50,723 nt of DNA, taken from Aquisalinus sp. GTDB lineage: Bacteria; Pseudomonadota; Alphaproteobacteria; Caulobacterales; Parvularculaceae. Of this stretch, positions 26,912 to 36,556 are shown piece after piece. Both the position numbers and the translations under genes were made by a program. How positions within the stretch are numbered: the stretch's first letter is position 1; each line of letters begins with the position of its first letter. The notes below the pieces were generated by a model. The model saw nothing but the letters and a program-made list of their open reading frames with translations, made no database searches and had not been told where the DNA came from. Location: contig JALEGJ010000067.1 of NCBI GenBank assembly GCA_022763115.1, forward strand, positions 1 to 50,723, written 5' to 3'.

Positions 26912-28264
26912 CTATTCTTCCGCAACCAGCAGCTCTGATGCTGTCTTCGGGTTGCGCAGCATGTCTTCGAAAATATCCCAGCGTTCTTCATCCGTCTCTG
27001 CCTTTGCTTCGATATAGGCTTTGACCAGATTGTATCCATGCGAATAATTTATGATATATCCGCGATACTTCTCGATGAACGCAAGTGACTGTTCGGCACG
27101 ATCACGGGAGATCAGGCGATATTTCTGCAGCACATCAATCGCTTCATCGCGTGTGAAGTTTCCATTGAGATACTCCCGCGCCACATAAACCGAGACAAAT
27201 TGAAGTTGCCGTGAGGCTTCTGCAACGATGCTGTCTATGTCCGCGAGTGCAGGGTCTATCCCGGCGATCAGGTATAAGACGTCCCGCTCATAGTTTTTCT
27301 TTTCATCGCCGGGAAAGGCGACGTCCACACCATAGTTCGCAGAACCTTCCGCAAAGAAAGCGCCGGGGCTGAAAAGCGGGAATACATAATACTCGATCCA
27401 GCCCTTCTCTTTCAGCAGATAGCGCTCTGTATAGATATTCCAGACATGGTGGCCGGGATACCCTTCATGGCAGCCAAGGTCGATTGCCCTGTCGACCCGG
27501 AAGGGTTGGTCCAGATTGATCTGTATCAGGCTTTCATAATCACCCTGGTACCAGTTGTAGCCGCTCCATGGCTTGTCGCGCACCAGTTCGAGCGTAAAAG
27601 ATTCATCCTCGGGCAAGTCATAATAGGCCAGCGTTCGTTTGCGACATTCAGCAATGGCTGTCCGGATCATTTCCTCAACCTTGTCCTCAGGGACTTCAAG
27701 CTGGCGCTGTAGCGCCTCGCGACGCTCCGCAATGCTGCCGTCACCTGGCAAAACATCATCCAGCCGGGCCAGCGCCGCATCAAAGATCGCGGGATCAATC
27801 TCCGGAACGACAGCATCATAGATCAGGGCAGTTTCCTCATCAAAGGACAGGGTTTCACCGCGCACCATCCGCATACGGGCGATCATCGCCTGAATATTGC
27901 CGCTCAGAATTTTTGCCCGGCGCTCTTCTCCCGCCGGCGGCGTAGTGAGGGCAAGGTCTGCGGCAAGGCCAGCTGCTTCCGTGTAGAGTTCATCGAGCGC
28001 CCGACCGGCAGAAAGCGCTTCTTCTTTCCAGTCTTCCGGCCCGGTATAGGCATCAACGTAGTCCGGGTCGAACTCCCCGAAGGCAAGGGCGACAGAAATG
28101 TAGTCCCGGGCGATTTCATCAATGTCACGGATGACAGTTTCAGCGTTGGTCTCAGCCGCTGATGGTGGTGTCGTGCCTGTGGCGGGAGCATTTGCTTCAG
28201 GCGCGGTATCATTACCGCAGGCAGCAAGGGCTAGGGCAAGGCAGGAAACAACTATTCTTTTCAT
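26912..28264 (-). CDS. DUF885 lipoprotein, candidate zinc peptidase
   Basis: A 450-residue lipoprotein when started at ATG 28264, which gives a perfect signal: K-R-I-V-V-S-C-L-A-L-A-L-A-A-C-G with the lipobox L-A-A-C; the frame is open 16 codons further upstream but that adds nothing sensible. The body is DUF885-like, with D-L-G-C-H-E-G-Y-P-G-H-H near residue 263 (an HExxH-like HEGYPGHH motif) and an F-A-E-G-S-A-N-Y-G segment that may supply a further ligand. A periplasmic or outer-membrane-anchored metallopeptidase is inferred; substrate unknown. A low-complexity Ala/Pro/Thr/Glu spacer follows the lipid cysteine. It lies 60 bases downstream of ubiG on the same strand. Confidence 0.85.
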   Translation of the reverse strand: MKRIVVSCLALALAACGNDTAPEANAPATGTTPPSAAETNAETVIRDIDEIARDYISVALAFGEFDPDYVDAYTGPEDWKEEALSAGRALDELYTEAAGLAADLALTTPPAGEERRAKILSGNIQAMIARMRMVRGETLSFDEETALIYDAVVPEIDPAIFDAALARLDDVLPGDGSIAERREALQRQLEVPEDKVEEMIRTAIAECRKRTLAYYDLPEDESFTLELVRDKPWSGYNWYQGDYESLIQINLDQPFRVDRAIDLGCHEGYPGHHVWNIYTERYLLKEKGWIEYYVFPLFSPGAFFAEGSANYGVDVAFPGDEKKNYERDVLYLIAGIDPALADIDSIVAEASRQLQFVSVYVAREYLNGNFTRDEAIDVLQKYRLISRDRAEQSLAFIEKYRGYIINYSHGYNLVKAYIEAKAETDEERWDIFEDMLRNPKTASELLVAEE

Positions 28265-28324
28265 GAGAAATCCCTCGAAAACGTGTCGCTGAGATACCGG
28301 GTATTTACGCAAGGCGCAAATAGG

Positions 28325-29193: not shown

Positions 29194-30498
29194 ATGTCTG
29201 CACCTTCACAACAAATGCCGCGCCAGTCACGCGTTGTGCTGAAGTTCGGCGGTACGTCTGTGGCGGATCTTGACCGGATTGCCAATGCTGCGGAGTTCAT
29301 CAAATTGGAAGCGGATGCCGGGCATGGTGTCGTGGTAGTGGTTTCCGCCATGGCAGGCGAGACCAACAGGTTGGTAGACCTCGTTCGGCGGGTCGATGCC
29401 ATCGGGAATGCTGCTGACTACGATCGGCGCGAGTATGATGCAGTTGTTTCGTCCGGGGAGCAGGTCACTTCGGGGTTGCTGGCGTTGACGCTGCAACGGC
29501 AGGGCTACAAGGCCCGTTCCTGGCAGGGCTGGCAGATACCCTTGCGTACAAACGAGGCACATGGCCGCGCTAGAATAGTCGATATTCCTGAAATAGTCAT
29601 CGGACCTGCCATAGATGCCGGAGAGATCGCGATTATTGCGGGTTTTCAAGGCATTACGGAGGAGAGCCGCATTTCGACCCTTGGGCGCGGTGGCTCGGAT
29701 ACCACAGCAGTCGCCCTCGCGGCGGCCCTTGGCGCAGAGCGCTGCGACATTTATACTGACATTGACGGGGTCTATACGACTGACCCGCGCATAACGTCAG
29801 AAGCGCGCCGGCTTGACCGTATTTCCTACGAAGAAATGCTGGAAATGGCCTCTTTGGGTGCGAAAGTTTTACAGACCAGATCTGTCGAACTGGCGATGGC
29901 TTATAACGTCCAGCTACGCGTGCTCAGCAGTTTCGCCAATCCGGAAGAAGCGCGTGCCGGTAAACTGCAACCCTGCACGGTTATTTGTAATGAGGATGAG
30001 ATCGTGGAAAAACATATTGTCAGCGGCATCACCCATAGTCACGCTGAAGCTAAAATCAGCCTCATGACGGTTCCTGATGAGCCGGGCCGCGCGGCGCGTA
30101 TTTTTGAGGAATTGGCCGCCGCGGACATTAATGTGGACATGATCGTCCAGAGCCCGGCCAAGACCGGCAAGGCAGCCAACATCTCGTTCTCCCTTGATGA
30201 GGGGGATGTGGCGAGGGCCCAGGAGTTGCTGGCAACCCTGAAAGATACAATCGGCTATACAGACGTTGTGGCCGACCGCAGTGTCTCAAAGATCTCGGTC
30301 ATTGGTGTGGGGATGAAGTCTCACGCCGGTGTTGCTGCGACCATGTTCAAGACGCTGGCGGACCGCAGTATCAACATTCTGAACATTTCCACATCAGAAA
30401 TAAAAATCAGTGTGCTGATTCATTCAGAATATACCGAGCTCGCCGTGCGGGCTCTGCATCAGGCCTATGGTCTGGAGAAGATTGCGGAAGCCTCTTGA
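29194..30498 (+). CDS. lysC: aspartate kinase
   Basis: The 434-residue aspartokinase phosphorylates aspartate, the first step to lysine, threonine, methionine and diaminopimelate. The kinase domain shows V-L-K-F-G-G-T-S-V-A, G-R-G-G-S-D-T-T-A-V-A-L-A-A and Y-T-D-I-D-G-V-Y-T-T-D-P-R. Two ACT domains follow (from about residue 277 and 357), with S-H-A-G-V-A-A-T-M-F in the second. It is a monofunctional enzyme slightly longer than the usual 405-420 because of a short N-terminal extension. It leads an operon with ptsP, 4 bases downstream, a pairing conserved in the class. Confidence 0.96.
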   Translation: MSAPSQQMPRQSRVVLKFGGTSVADLDRIANAAEFIKLEADAGHGVVVVVSAMAGETNRLVDLVRRVDAIGNAADYDRREYDAVVSSGEQVTSGLLALTLQRQGYKARSWQGWQIPLRTNEAHGRARIVDIPEIVIGPAIDAGEIAIIAGFQGITEESRISTLGRGGSDTTAVALAAALGAERCDIYTDIDGVYTTDPRITSEARRLDRISYEEMLEMASLGAKVLQTRSVELAMAYNVQLRVLSSFANPEEARAGKLQPCTVICNEDEIVEKHIVSGITHSHAEAKISLMTVPDEPGRAARIFEELAAADINVDMIVQSPAKTGKAANISFSLDEGDVARAQELLATLKDTIGYTDVVADRSVSKISVIGVGMKSHAGVAATMFKTLADRSINILNISTSEIKISVLIHSEYTELAVRALHQAYGLEKIAEAS

Positions 30499-30502
30499 AG
30501 TC

Positions 30503-32794
30503 ATGAGTGATACCGGCGCTACAGGACATCCATTTCGACACGGCGGCAGTTCGCCGCGCGTTCTGCTGCGTCGCTTGCGTGAAATCATGGCAGCCGAAGA
30601 GGGGGCTCAGGCAAGGTTGGATAAGCTCTCTGAAGCTATTGCCGCAAACATGGTGGCGGATGTCTGCTCAATCTATCTGCGCCGGGATGATGATGTTCTG
30701 GAGCTGTTTTCGACGGTCGGCCTTAATCAGGAGGCCGTCCACAAGACGCGCCTTAACTGGCAGGAAGGCCTGGTCGGGTATGTCGCAGACAAGGCGTTAC
30801 CGCTGAATATAAATGAAGCTCAGGATCATCCCGCATTCTCTTTCAGGCCGGAAGTCGGGGAAGAGATGCTGCACGCATTTCTGGGTGTCCCAATCATCCG
30901 TACAGGACAGGTTTTGGGTGTGCTGGTTATCCAGAACCGCACGTCACGGCATTATACAGAAGAAGAAATGGAAGCGGCGCAACTTGTCGCAACCGTCCTG
31001 GCAGAAATTGTTGCTGCGGGCGACCTCCTGGAAAAAGAGGATGCTGCAGAAGTAGACCGCCTGTTGCACCGTCCGGAGTATCTGAAGGCAATGCCGATCG
31101 TACCGGGGATCACCATCGGTACGGCTGCCCTGCATGAGCCGCCTGCGCCCAAGCACAAGGTCTTTGCAGCAGATGTGGCGCTGGAAACAGAGCGCTTGCG
31201 GGAAGGCATTGTCCGCCTGCAGAAGTCGGTTGATGACATGATCGCCCGCAACAGCCAGCTGAGTGCGATCTCGCGCGAAGTGATAGAGGTCTATCGTCTT
31301 TTTGCGTATGACAAGGGCTGGGCTAAACGACTGGAAGAAGCGGTGCTCTCCGGGCTTAGCTGCGAGTCTGCTGTCGAGCAGGTGCAGGCGGAAAATCGCC
31401 AGCGGATGCGCAAGGCCACAGACCCTTATCTGCGCGAGCGATTGCATGATCTGGATGACCTCTCCCGGCGCCTGCTGCGCTCTTTGTCAGGCAAGACAAG
31501 ACGGGATGAGCTTGAATTGCCGGAAAACGCTGTTCTGTTTGCGCACGCGCTGGGCCCGGCAGAGATTCTGGAATTTGATCGGCGAAAACTAAAAGGCATC
31601 GTTCTCGCGGAAGGAGCAGATACCTCCCACGCGGCCATTGTGGCCCGGTCACTTGGCATACCAATGATTGGTCGCAGTGAAGCGGCGATTGAGCGAGTAG
31701 AGATTGGTGATGCCGTCGTCATCGATGGCGAGAGCGGTGAGATCTTCATCCGTCCCGAGGCTGACGTTATCTCCGGCTATCAGGAAAAGCTCGCGCTCTT
31801 TTCCGCCGCGCAAAAAGAATACGCCCAGTTGCGTAATCTGCCTTGCGTCACGCGCGATGGCACTGAGGTCGAACTTTTCATGAATGCCGGGCTTGTCCTT
31901 GATATGCCGCATCTGGAAACAACGGGTGCGGAGGGTGTTGGCCTTTTCCGGACAGAGCTGCAGTTTCTGGTCAGTCCACAATTGCCGACGGCCTCCTCTC
32001 AGGAAGAGCTTTACAGGCAGGTGCTTGACGCAGCAGACGGCAAGCCGGTCATTTTCCGCACGGCCGATCTGGGCAGTGATAAGTCGGCCCCTTATATGAG
32101 AGTTGTTCGCGAGGGAAACCCGGCCATGGGCTGGCGCGGTCTCAGGATGTCGATAGATCGCGAGGGGCTTATCAGGCCTCAGCTACGCGCTCTTCTGGGG
32201 GCTGCTCAGGGGCGTGAGCTGAATGTTCTCTTGCCGCTCGTGACAACCAGCGACGAGGTCGGGGCCATTCGGGCGATCCTCGAGCGTGAAGTCGAACGTC
32301 GGGACAAGCTTGGTCTTGGGCAACCGACATCAATCAGGGTTGGGGCAATGATTGAGATACCAGCTGCGGCCTGGCGTCTTGAGCATATTGCGCCGCAAGT
32401 GGATTTCCTGTCTCTTGGGGGTAACGATTTGGCTCAGTTCTTTTTCGCTTCCGACCGGGAGTCCGAAAAGATGGCGGGGCGTTACGATCACTTGCATCCA
32501 GCCTTCCTGAGTTTCATTGGCATGACGGCGACCAAGGCTAACAGGGCAGGGAAACCATTGTGCTATTGTGGTGAACAGGCAGGCGATCCGTTAATGGCTC
32601 TGGCATTGCTGGCACTGGATATACCAAGACTGTCCGTCTCGGCCTCCAGTATTGGCCCGCTCAAGAAACTTATCCGCGCAGTTGATCTGAACGATCTGAC
32701 CGCGTGGCTCGAGCCAAGATTGCAATCTCCTGCGCAGAGCTTGCGGGCTGAGCTGGAGGCTTACGCAGCGGATCGATCCCTGCCCCTCAGGTAG
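30503..32794 (+). CDS. ptsP: phosphoenolpyruvate-protein phosphotransferase PtsP (EI-Ntr)
   Basis: The 763-residue enzyme I of the nitrogen PTS, started at ATG 30503. An N-terminal GAF domain (about 25-170) precedes the EI domains. The phosphorylated histidine is His376 in G-A-D-T-S-H-A-A-I-V-A-R-S, the PEP-binding barrel holds L-F-R-T-E-L-Q-F-L and L-S-L-G-G-N-D-L-A-Q-F, and the catalytic cysteine is Cys689 in C-G-E-Q-A-G-D-P. It passes phosphate from PEP to NPr and then EIIA-Ntr, linking carbon and nitrogen state to regulation of potassium, stress and stringent-response pathways; the GAF domain can bind glutamine in relatives. NPr and EIIA genes are not in the window. Confidence 0.95.
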   Translation: MSDTGATGHPFRHGGSSPRVLLRRLREIMAAEEGAQARLDKLSEAIAANMVADVCSIYLRRDDDVLELFSTVGLNQEAVHKTRLNWQEGLVGYVADKALPLNINEAQDHPAFSFRPEVGEEMLHAFLGVPIIRTGQVLGVLVIQNRTSRHYTEEEMEAAQLVATVLAEIVAAGDLLEKEDAAEVDRLLHRPEYLKAMPIVPGITIGTAALHEPPAPKHKVFAADVALETERLREGIVRLQKSVDDMIARNSQLSAISREVIEVYRLFAYDKGWAKRLEEAVLSGLSCESAVEQVQAENRQRMRKATDPYLRERLHDLDDLSRRLLRSLSGKTRRDELELPENAVLFAHALGPAEILEFDRRKLKGIVLAEGADTSHAAIVARSLGIPMIGRSEAAIERVEIGDAVVIDGESGEIFIRPEADVISGYQEKLALFSAAQKEYAQLRNLPCVTRDGTEVELFMNAGLVLDMPHLETTGAEGVGLFRTELQFLVSPQLPTASSQEELYRQVLDAADGKPVIFRTADLGSDKSAPYMRVVREGNPAMGWRGLRMSIDREGLIRPQLRALLGAAQGRELNVLLPLVTTSDEVGAIRAILEREVERRDKLGLGQPTSIRVGAMIEIPAAAWRLEHIAPQVDFLSLGGNDLAQFFFASDRESEKMAGRYDHLHPAFLSFIGMTATKANRAGKPLCYCGEQAGDPLMALALLALDIPRLSVSASSIGPLKKLIRAVDLNDLTAWLEPRLQSPAQSLRAELEAYAADRSLPLR

Positions 32795-32993: not shown

Positions 32994-34253
32994 ATGTCCA
33001 GTGTGGCTGACATTGTTGAGTTGCAGGAAGAGCGGTCAAAACGTGCTCCGCTGACGGATGAAGAGTTTCAGACCGCAGGCGCGATGCTGAAAGCAGCCCG
33101 GGAGGCCGCGGGGCACTCTCTGGAAGATGCCCATGATGCAACCAATGTCCGGGCAGATTATCTTGAGGCCATCGAGGAGATGGACATCTCGCGATTGCCT
33201 ATCGCCGCCTATACAACAGGTTTCGTCAAGGCCTACGCCCAGTTTCTGGAGTTACCGGATGAGGCTCTGGTGGCGCGTTTTCGAAAGGAAGCCGGCTATG
33301 TCGCCGGCGCTGCCGTTGCCCCTGAAGTGCCAGCCACGTCACGTGAAGATATTTCTGCCGGTCGTGAGTTGTCCTTGCTGGCAGTTGTCGCGATCCTTTT
33401 CTTTGTGATCTGGGTCGCATTTCAGATCACAAGACCGCCAGCAGATACTGGCCCTGTGGCTGTAGAGGGCACACCTTTGCAACAACGTCCGGCAGAGCAG
33501 CTGACAGAGCCGACATATACTGTCGCTAATGAAGCCTCTGATGACGTAGCAATCACGGATGACAGCGAAACAGCTGCGGAACCTTCCGTCAATGTCGCAA
33601 CAGCTTCCGCAGATACCGCAGAGGCATTGGAAGGGGTATTGCAAGCCCCGGCGGATGACGTTGGTGCGAGCGTACTGACTGAAGCGCCTGCTGCGCAGGA
33701 GGGTGACCTAGCTACAGTGATAGCTGATGAGCCAGCAGCAAGTGACGCGCAGGACCTTAATACAGCACAGCTTGAAGCCTTAACCGACACTGATGGTGCT
33801 ACGGACGTGGCTGCTGTTTTGACAGAATTGCCTCTGGCGGAAACCTTCCCTCTTGAGGTCACGCCCGAGCAAAATGCTGAAAGACCAGCTACTGCAGAGG
33901 AGTCACTTGCCACACCGGTTGTCGAACAACCTCAGCCTGCGGTGACATCTGAACCGGTAACACCACTGGAGCCTGTGCTGACAGAGGCTGTTCGTCTGTC
34001 ATCGGTCTCCCCGGTTTATCCCAGCAGGTGTCAGCGCCGGGCAGATGGTACCGAGCGTGTGACCGTGATGTTCGATATCGACAGCCGTGGCCGTCCCGTG
34101 AATCAGCGTGTGAGCCAGTCCAGCAACAGCTGTTTCAATGGTGCTTCCTTGAGCGCGATTGACCGCTGGACCTTCCAGCCTGCGACCAGAGATGGCGCGC
34201 CTGTACCGGTCTTCGGGCAAACCACGACCTTCGTCTATAATCTCCCTGAGTAG
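32994..34253 (+). CDS. RodZ-like HTH / transmembrane / TonB C-terminal hybrid protein
   Basis: The 419-residue product combines three parts. Residues 28-100 form a RodZ/HTH_25-type helix-turn-helix (G-A-M-L-K-A-A-R-E-A-A-G-H-S-L-E-D then Y-L-E-A-I-E ... Y-T-T-G-F-V-K-A-Y-A). A membrane helix spans about 126-145. A long acidic Ala/Glu/Thr-rich periplasmic linker (147-330) leads to a TonB C-terminal domain (about 332-419: S-P-V-Y-P-S-R-C-Q-R-R-A, A-I-D-R-W-T-F-Q-P, dG-x-P-V). Two cysteines in that domain could form a disulfide. RodZ N-termini bind MreB at the inner membrane; TonB ends contact outer-membrane receptors or envelope partners. It sits between ptsP and ispG, where a plain RodZ-like gene is often found in this class. 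No exbB or exbD is adjacent. Confidence 0.85.
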   Translation: MSSVADIVELQEERSKRAPLTDEEFQTAGAMLKAAREAAGHSLEDAHDATNVRADYLEAIEEMDISRLPIAAYTTGFVKAYAQFLELPDEALVARFRKEAGYVAGAAVAPEVPATSREDISAGRELSLLAVVAILFFVIWVAFQITRPPADTGPVAVEGTPLQQRPAEQLTEPTYTVANEASDDVAITDDSETAAEPSVNVATASADTAEALEGVLQAPADDVGASVLTEAPAAQEGDLATVIADEPAASDAQDLNTAQLEALTDTDGATDVAAVLTELPLAETFPLEVTPEQNAERPATAEESLATPVVEQPQPAVTSEPVTPLEPVLTEAVRLSSVSPVYPSRCQRRADGTERVTVMFDIDSRGRPVNQRVSQSSNSCFNGASLSAIDRWTFQPATRDGAPVPVFGQTTTFVYNLPE

Positions 34254-34334: not shown

Positions 34335-35453
34335 ATGAGCGTAAGACCCTGGAGAGATATTGAGAGGCGCAAATGCCGTCAGATTATGGTCGGCAATGTG
34401 CCTGTTGGCGGGGACGCCCCCATAACCGTTCAGTCGATGACAAATACCCTCACTTCCGATGCGACTGCTACATTGAAGCAGGTTGAGGAGATTGCCGAGG
34501 CAGGCGGTGACATTGTTCGGGTTTCCTGCCCTGATGAGGCTTCAACGGCGGCGATGAAGGAAATCTGTGCTCAGTCACCAGTGCCAATCGTAGCGGATAT
34601 TCATTTTCATTATAAACGCGGCATCGAAGCAGCCGAGGCCGGGGCGGCTTGCCTTCGCATCAATCCTGGAAATATCGGCTCGGAAGATCGAGTCAAGGAA
34701 GTCATCAGAGCTGCGAAGGACAATGGCTGCTCCATGCGGATCGGGGTCAATGGTGGATCTCTCGAACGGCATCTGCTGGAGAAATATGGAGAGCCGTGCC
34801 CTGAGGCAATGGTTGAAAGTGCGCTCGATCATGCTCGAATCCTTCAGGACAATGACTTTCATGAGTTCAAGATATCAGTCAAAGCCTCGGACCTGTTCCT
34901 CACGGTCGCGGCATATCAGGGACTGGCGGATGCTATAGATTGTCCGTTGCATCTGGGCGTGACGGAAGCGGGCGGTGCGCGTATCGGGTCAATCAAGTCA
35001 GCGGTGGGGCTAGGTTCCCTTTTGTGGGCGGGCATCGGGGACACGATCCGTATTTCCCTGTCAGCGGACCCTGTTGAAGAAATCAAGGTGGGGTACGATT
35101 TGCTGAAAAGCCTCGGCCTGCGCCATCGCGGTGTCAATATTATCTCTTGCCCATCCTGTGCGAGACAGGGGTTCGAAGTCATCAAGACAGTTGAAATCCT
35201 CGAAGAACGCTTGGCGCATATTGCCACGCCCATGTCGCTCTCAATCATCGGTTGCGTCGTGAACGGTCCTGGTGAGGCGCGTGAAACCGATATTGGTTTT
35301 ACTGGTGGCGGCGCCGAATCCGGTATGGTCTATATTGCCGGCTTGCCCGATCATAAAATGTCGAATGACAAAATGGTCGATCATATCGTCGAATTGGTCG
35401 AGGAAAAGGCGGCACAGATAGAAGCAGCCAGGAATTTGAATGCGGCTGAGTAA
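34335..35453 (+). CDS. ispG: 4-hydroxy-3-methylbut-2-enyl diphosphate synthase (flavodoxin)
   Basis: The 372-residue IspG (GcpE) reduces MEcPP to HMBPP in the non-mevalonate isoprenoid pathway with a [4Fe-4S] cluster. The N-terminal barrel has V-Q-S-M-T-N-T and V-A-D-I-H-F-H-Y; the C-terminal cluster domain has [11 protein letters not shown] and [11 protein letters not shown], giving the three cysteine ligands and the glutamate. Length is typical of the bacterial two-domain form. An AAGGTGAG site precedes the ATG. prfA follows after 23 bases; the hisS gene often found between them in this class is missing here. Confidence 0.96.
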
Positions 35454-35476: not shown

Positions 35477-36556
35477 TTGATTCCTCAGGAGAAACTCGAC
35501 AGTCTCATCGCGCGCTTTGAGGCGATAGAAAAGTCAATGGAGACCGAAACGGACGCCGAAGAAATTGTGCGTCTGTCAAAAGAGCATGCCGAGCTGCGCC
35601 CTGTTGTGGAAGCAGGTCGGGAACTTACCGATGCCCGACGCCAGCTGGACGAATTGGTAGAGCTCTCCGGGTCAGATGATCCGGAAATGGCTGAAATGGC
35701 AGCAGAGGAACTGGAAGAACTGAAAGCGCGTATTCCTGAAATCGAACACGCTCTGCAGATCATGCTGTTGCCGCGCGACAAGGCAGACCGCTCTGCCAGC
35801 GTCATTATTGAGGTTCGTGCTGGAACCGGCGGAGATGAAGCAGCTCTTTTTGCGGGTGATCTGTTCCGAATGTATCAGCGCTACACACAGATCAATGGCT
35901 GGAAAATGGAGGTTCTGTCTGCATCCGAGTCAGATGTGGGCGGCTACAAGGAAGTGCAGGCCAGCGTTACAGGAGATGGTGTCTTTGCACGTCTGAAATT
36001 TGAATCGGGCGTGCATCGTGTGCAACGGGTGCCGGAAACAGAGACGCAAGGCCGTGTTCATACTTCCGCAGCAACAGTTGCTGTTCTGCCAGAGCCGGAA
36101 GAAGTTGATATTGAGATTAATGAAAGTGATCTGCGTGTTGATGTTTTTCGGGCGTCCGGTCCCGGCGGCCAGTCTGTGAACACAACAGACAGCGCGGTGC
36201 GTATCACGCACTTGCCGACAGGACTAGTTGTGTCGCAGCAGGACGAAAAATCCCAGCACAAGAACCGCGCAAAGGCCATGAAAGTGCTTCGGGCACGCCT
36301 TTATGAGGCAGAGCGAGCGCGGGCTGATGCAGAGCGCGCAGCCGAACGCAAAGGTCAGGTCGGCTCGGGTGATCGTTCCGAACGTATACGCACCTATAAC
36401 TTCCCTCAAAGCCGTGTGACGGATCACCGCATCAATCTGACGCTGTACAAGCTGGATAAGGTGATAGCCGGTGAGGCGCTGGATGAGCTGGTTGATGCAC
36501 TGATTACACAGGACCAGGCAGACAGGCTGGCGGCCATCGAAACCGAAGGAACCTGA
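35477..36556 (+). CDS. prfA: peptide chain release factor 1
   Basis: The 359-residue RF1 reads UAA and UAG stop codons. The codon-recognition region is in the middle domain, and the ribosomal catalytic motif is G-G-Q in [14 protein letters not shown], where the Gln is methylated by the downstream PrmC. The RF1-type [15 protein letters not shown] block is intact. The only in-frame start is TTG at 35477, so initiation is probably weak or tuned. prmC begins 3 bases after the stop, placing the factor and its modifying enzyme in one unit. Confidence 0.95.

Follow-up and report, generated by a model that had tools for sequence, protein, structure and literature searches.

RodZ is a cell-shape protein that links MreB, the bacterial actin, to the membrane. 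It is composed of a cytosolic HTH_25 domain, a single transmembrane helix and a periplasmic linker ending in a RodZ_C domain (PF13413/PF13464), and in Alphaproteobacteria its gene occupies a ptsP-rodZ-ispG locus and co-occurs with mreBCD. TonB and TonB2 (PF03544) possess an inner-membrane anchor, a disordered linker and a C-terminal fold with a YP motif. Peptide binding by strand addition has been described for TonB and TolA (PMC12204202). Not all TonB-like proteins serve uptake: SjdR (TonB1) of Anabaena and TonB3 of Pseudomonas aeruginosa have structural roles, in the septal wall and in pili (PMC8262864, PMC8597729). In Rhodospirillum rubrum the movement of RodZ, as part of the elongasome, is controlled from the outer membrane by the PapS-porin system (PMC11369160).

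The protein described here is encoded in a window of 50,723 nucleotides (the whole stretch of Aquisalinus sp. contig JALEGJ010000067.1 that was analysed) and shares features with each of these systems. It has the cytosolic domain, helix, linker and locus of RodZ, but RodZ_C is replaced by a TonB_C domain that bears a pair of cysteines. Unlike TonB and TonB2, it possesses a folded cytosolic HTH domain ahead of the membrane helix, lacks the SHLS motif, and is encoded in a housekeeping gene neighbourhood without ExbB/ExbD. Like the fusion, SjdR has an N-terminal extension in the cytosol. However, no RodZ HTH is described in either SjdR or TonB3, and the TonB domain of SjdR is truncated. In the PapS-porin system the link is an outer-membrane lipoprotein serving as a roadblock and not a domain of RodZ. 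No paper on a RodZ-TonB_C fusion was found in the literature searched.

Architecture and gene neighbourhood

The initial annotation had recognised a RodZ/HTH_25 domain, a membrane helix, a long acidic linker and a TonB_C domain with two cysteines in one protein, at a locus where a RodZ-like gene is common. The features, in window coordinates, are:

30467..32794, + strand: ptsP (PEP--protein phosphotransferase), conserved upstream neighbour (synteny)
32994..34253, + strand: rodZ orthologue fused to TonB_C, 419 aa, ATG start (ORF, profile and synteny)
33084..33266, + strand: HTH_25, RodZ-type cytosolic domain, aa 31-91 (Pfam E 2.7e-20; fold match to RodZ in 2wus, Z 12.2)
33342..33431, + strand: membrane-spanning helix within aa 117-146, hydrophobic core LSLLAVVAILFFVIWVAFQI (sequence and model)
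33432..33989, + strand: periplasmic linker, disordered, acidic and Ala/Pro-rich, about 186 aa (model and composition)
34011..34244, + strand: TonB_C domain, aa 340-417, replacing RodZ_C (Pfam E 3.7e-11, model and fold match)
34335..35453, + strand: ispG, conserved downstream neighbour (synteny)
35477..36556, + strand: prfA (release factor 1), conserved neighbour (synteny)

Both profile libraries, the AlphaFold2 model and the fold matches bore out this domain reading. HTH_25 and TonB_C had been expected within residues 28-100 and 332-419; they were called inside these ranges, both above the Pfam curated cut-offs, and NCBIfam tonB_Cterm likewise exceeded its own cut-off. In the AlphaFold2 model, built from six window/locus sequences, the two domains had pLDDT values of about 90-96 and most of the linker fell below 50, with a helix at 117-146. 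As in RodZ, this single membrane helix follows the cytosolic domain, according to both sequence and model. Residues 26-105 resembled RodZ in the MreB-RodZ crystal 2wus (rmsd 2.4 over 78 residues), while residues 329-419 resembled the TonB C-terminal domain bound to FoxA (6i97 chain D; Z 12.7, rmsd 1.9, 89 residues) and that bound to BtuB (2gsk; Z 11.6). The closest solved TonB structure was 6i97 by fold and 2k9k, a TonB2, by sequence. The linker contained 38 D/E against 2 K/R, and the two cysteines of the TonB_C domain were C346 and C380.

The gene order around the fusion was ubiG, lysC (aspartate kinase), ptsP, fusion, ispG, prfA and prmC. The order ptsP-rodZ-ispG-prfA also surrounds the ordinary rodZ of sister families, in line with the initial annotation's view of the locus, and the fusion is thus the RodZ orthologue and not an extra gene. 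Next to ubiG there is an ORF of 466 aa that has no NCBIfam match (window 26912-28312, - strand). The source genome has mreB, mreC, mreD, a PBP2-type transpeptidase and RodA-type genes clustered on another contig (C165). Profile searches found no RodZ_C domain anywhere in this genome, and the only full-length RodZ-type HTH_25 was that of the fusion. Nothing pointed to the division machinery in particular, to which a link had also been proposed.

The HTH_25 domain of the fusion has the MreB-binding fold, which implies no role in DNA binding, and, like that of other RodZ proteins, it would be expected to bind MreB. The contact helix that faces MreB has kept its aromatic residues, Y/F73 and F77, which were equated by motif alignment with E. 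coli F60 and Y64. F77 was present in all 82 complete fused ORFs of the family, and both positions were aromatic in all 82. In E. coli RodZ, the F60A substitution weakens the interaction with MreB (PMC6946637). Since the HTH fold is related to XRE regulators, and Shigella RodZ is reported to bind RNA (PMC7018016), the protein could instead be a membrane-bound regulator. Its HTH domain would then bind DNA or RNA and its TonB_C domain would sense the state of the outer membrane or periplasm, making it a signalling receptor and not a shape protein. We find this very improbable. The domain is of the RodZ subtype, sits at the RodZ locus and keeps the MreB-contact aromatics, and the genome, which possesses an mre cluster, offers no other RodZ candidate.

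Distribution and origin of the fusion

The closest named relatives were Aquisalinus and Parvularculaceae. Within this family the protein was matched at least partly in all 62 genomes examined; the rodZ fusion gene was not found in two low-quality Parvularculaceae genomes. Every one of the 82 complete distinct fused ORFs possessed both HTH_25 and TonB_C, and none possessed RodZ_C. The 42 RodZ ORFs compared from sister families and elsewhere in Alphaproteobacteria differed: all 42 had HTH_25, 40 had RodZ_C (counted at E <= 0.01, some of these matches being under the curated cut-off), and TonB_C was absent from every one. A search for this domain order in alphaproteobacteria, which the initial annotation had advised, showed it in this one family among the matches listed. 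Three Parvularculaceae RodZ ORFs without the TonB part stop at contig edges. No fusion was found outside Parvularculaceae among the best matches listed for the order, class and phylum samples (over 600 genomes), lists in which rare cases could be missed. The fusion is a family trait, retained in every Parvularculaceae species that could be checked.

Since the architecture is present throughout the family, the fusion cannot be attributed to chance. Chance or mis-called domains were ruled out by the family-wide conservation, the fold model and the agreement of two profile libraries, and a chimeric or frameshifted ORF of a single assembly was ruled out by the 82 distinct fused ORFs.

In the tree of N-terminal parts, ordinary RodZ and fused proteins were split with an SH-aLRT support of 95, and orthologues and second fused copies were each confined to one side of a branch. 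In the TonB_C tree, stand-alone domains were split from fused ones at 72/97. This branch was recovered in 70% of bootstrap trees, so that bootstrap support for the split was moderate. The second fused copies, which occur in genus g6 and in part of g2, formed a single clade (97/94). In g6 the second copy (L120-L132, L140 and L145) occupied a fairly constant site between sdhB/creD/enoyl-CoA hydratase and M19 dipeptidase/sdhA.

RodZ_C was exchanged for a TonB-like C-terminal domain, most simply once, before the family diversified. The simplest reading of the second copies is a single duplication of the fused gene after the fusion, in part of the family's history. The fusion is a RodZ by descent, without the full RodZ architecture.

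Linker length, motor coupling and proposed function

The linkers of the orthologues were bimodal in length, with 31-63 aa in 36 of them (L050-L117) and 97-333 aa in 19 (L003-L029), and those of the second copies ranged between 89 and 244 aa. The shortening mapped to a single change on the N-terminal tree, with the short form clustering as a sister clade. The long form was retained in genera g1, g4, g8 and g9 and in all second copies, and genera with a short orthologue often have a long second copy too (e.g. g6). A rule of at least one long linker per genome was ruled out by G001, G006, G017, G047 and G048, which are 96-99% complete and have only a short-linker copy. Arg345 (YPxR) was found in 38 of 46 long-linker and 10 of 36 short-linker proteins (Fisher p 1e-6). 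This association was dropped as evidence, since one shortening event amounts to a single independent contrast.

We suggest that the family's RodZ, with a TonB-type peptide-binding domain swapped in, acts as a passive, MreB-coupled anchor or tether in the envelope, a reading that we hold to be somewhat more probable than its negation. By analogy with TonB C-terminal domains, the TonB-type domain, possibly stapled by a putative C346-C380 disulfide, would take up a short peptide from an envelope partner as an added beta-strand, and the length of the linker would set its reach. The periplasmic partner would then govern the position or movement of the elongasome. With a long linker, as in the window protein, it would be an outer-membrane protein, and with a short one it would lie nearer, as an elongasome subunit or a wall protein.

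The initial annotation had suggested that the protein could tie MreB to outer-membrane partners. Its inner half was strengthened by the RodZ identity, the contact aromatics and the mre genes. Its outer half, reach to the outer membrane and binding there, was not established, and linkers in the sister clade measure just 31-63 aa. For the window protein itself, outer-membrane reach is possible, given its long linker and a fold of the receptor-binding type. A published envelope simulation set the two membranes 12 and 23 nm apart (PMC11633176). A 31-residue linker extends to about 11 nm at most and would thus reach the outer membrane only across a narrow periplasm. The short-linker clade and the five genomes with short copies alone therefore weaken a general outer-membrane role. 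A broader view, in which TonB-box-like recognition couples MreB filaments, through the full depth of the envelope, to proteins of the outer membrane, the composition of the outer membrane steers wall synthesis, and the duplication split short-reach from long-reach RodZ in some genera, is in our opinion doubtful.

The same short linkers, and the genomes in which they occur alone, would fit a structural replacement that creates no new link. In that case the TonB_C domain would contact the same elongasome partners as before (PBP2, MreC or peptidoglycan) and the outer membrane would not be reached. The disordered part of E. coli RodZ self-associates (PMC6946637), and SjdR, a short TonB-like protein, affects wall structure and not transport (PMC8262864, PMC8597729), both of which agree with such a replacement. 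However, the strictly conserved TonB fold, YP motif and cysteines suggest specific binding, and the long-linker form has been kept in four genera and in all second copies. We consider a mere replacement unlikely, although it deserves some weight. Rod shape in E. coli depends little on the periplasmic part of RodZ (PMC6946637), so the swap could have been near-neutral and a mild effect is to be expected.

The fusion, taken as a passive tether, is not expected to be a component of a Ton motor, and no sign was seen that ExbB/ExbD drive it. ExbB/ExbD-type genes were searched for on its contig and none were found, in agreement with the initial annotation, which had described a TonB-like span without nearby ExbB/ExbD. 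Strong matches were present on contigs C77 and C96, and the former carries an operon of the form DUF3450-ExbB-ExbB-ExbD-ExbD-TonB-TPR. This separate Ton operon means that the fusion is not the TonB of the genome, and the earlier description holds for its own contig only. TolQ/TolR-type genes were present as well. The existence of both motor types, the true TonB_C fold and a window-protein linker long enough for the periplasm would allow an active transducer, energised by ExbB/ExbD or TolQ/TolR, that pulls outer-membrane receptors while bound to MreB. The folded cytosolic domain ahead of the helix and the lack of a motor gene nearby make this improbable.

The Ser-X-His-X-Leu-X-Ser (SHLS) motif of TonB and TolA was absent from the helix of the window protein, which has no His. 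Nearly all fused proteins likewise lacked the SHLS histidine, and only a few members had histidines at the helix edges. Against motor coupling this is weak evidence, since the TonB of the C77 operon (G000, L171:3657-4259, + strand) also lacks the histidine in its membrane helix. Judging by this TonB, which has the cysteine pair, the motif classically tied to motor coupling may not apply to this lineage. The missing histidine could thus not serve as proof.

In Parvularculaceae, then, a domain whose mode of binding is well understood took over from another and became fixed family-wide, with two reaches kept in some genera. The fusion makes it testable whether the elongasome is under outer-membrane control.

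Stand-alone TonB_C proteins and the cysteine pair

C346 and C380 were invariant among the Parvularculaceae fusions. The pair was rejected as a hallmark of the fusion, since the family's stand-alone TonB_C proteins mostly carry it too. Its presence in stand-alone proteins of the same genomes fits a donor of the domain from the same lineage.

On contig C161 of the source genome (G000, L173:4522-6121, - strand), two adjacent ORFs of 357 and 173 aa matched the family TonB_C model and possess YPxxC cysteines, with only the larger passing the Pfam TonB_C threshold. In another genome (G026, L215:1761-2819, - strand), a protein of 353 aa had two TonB_C domains in tandem, with the cysteine pair in both.
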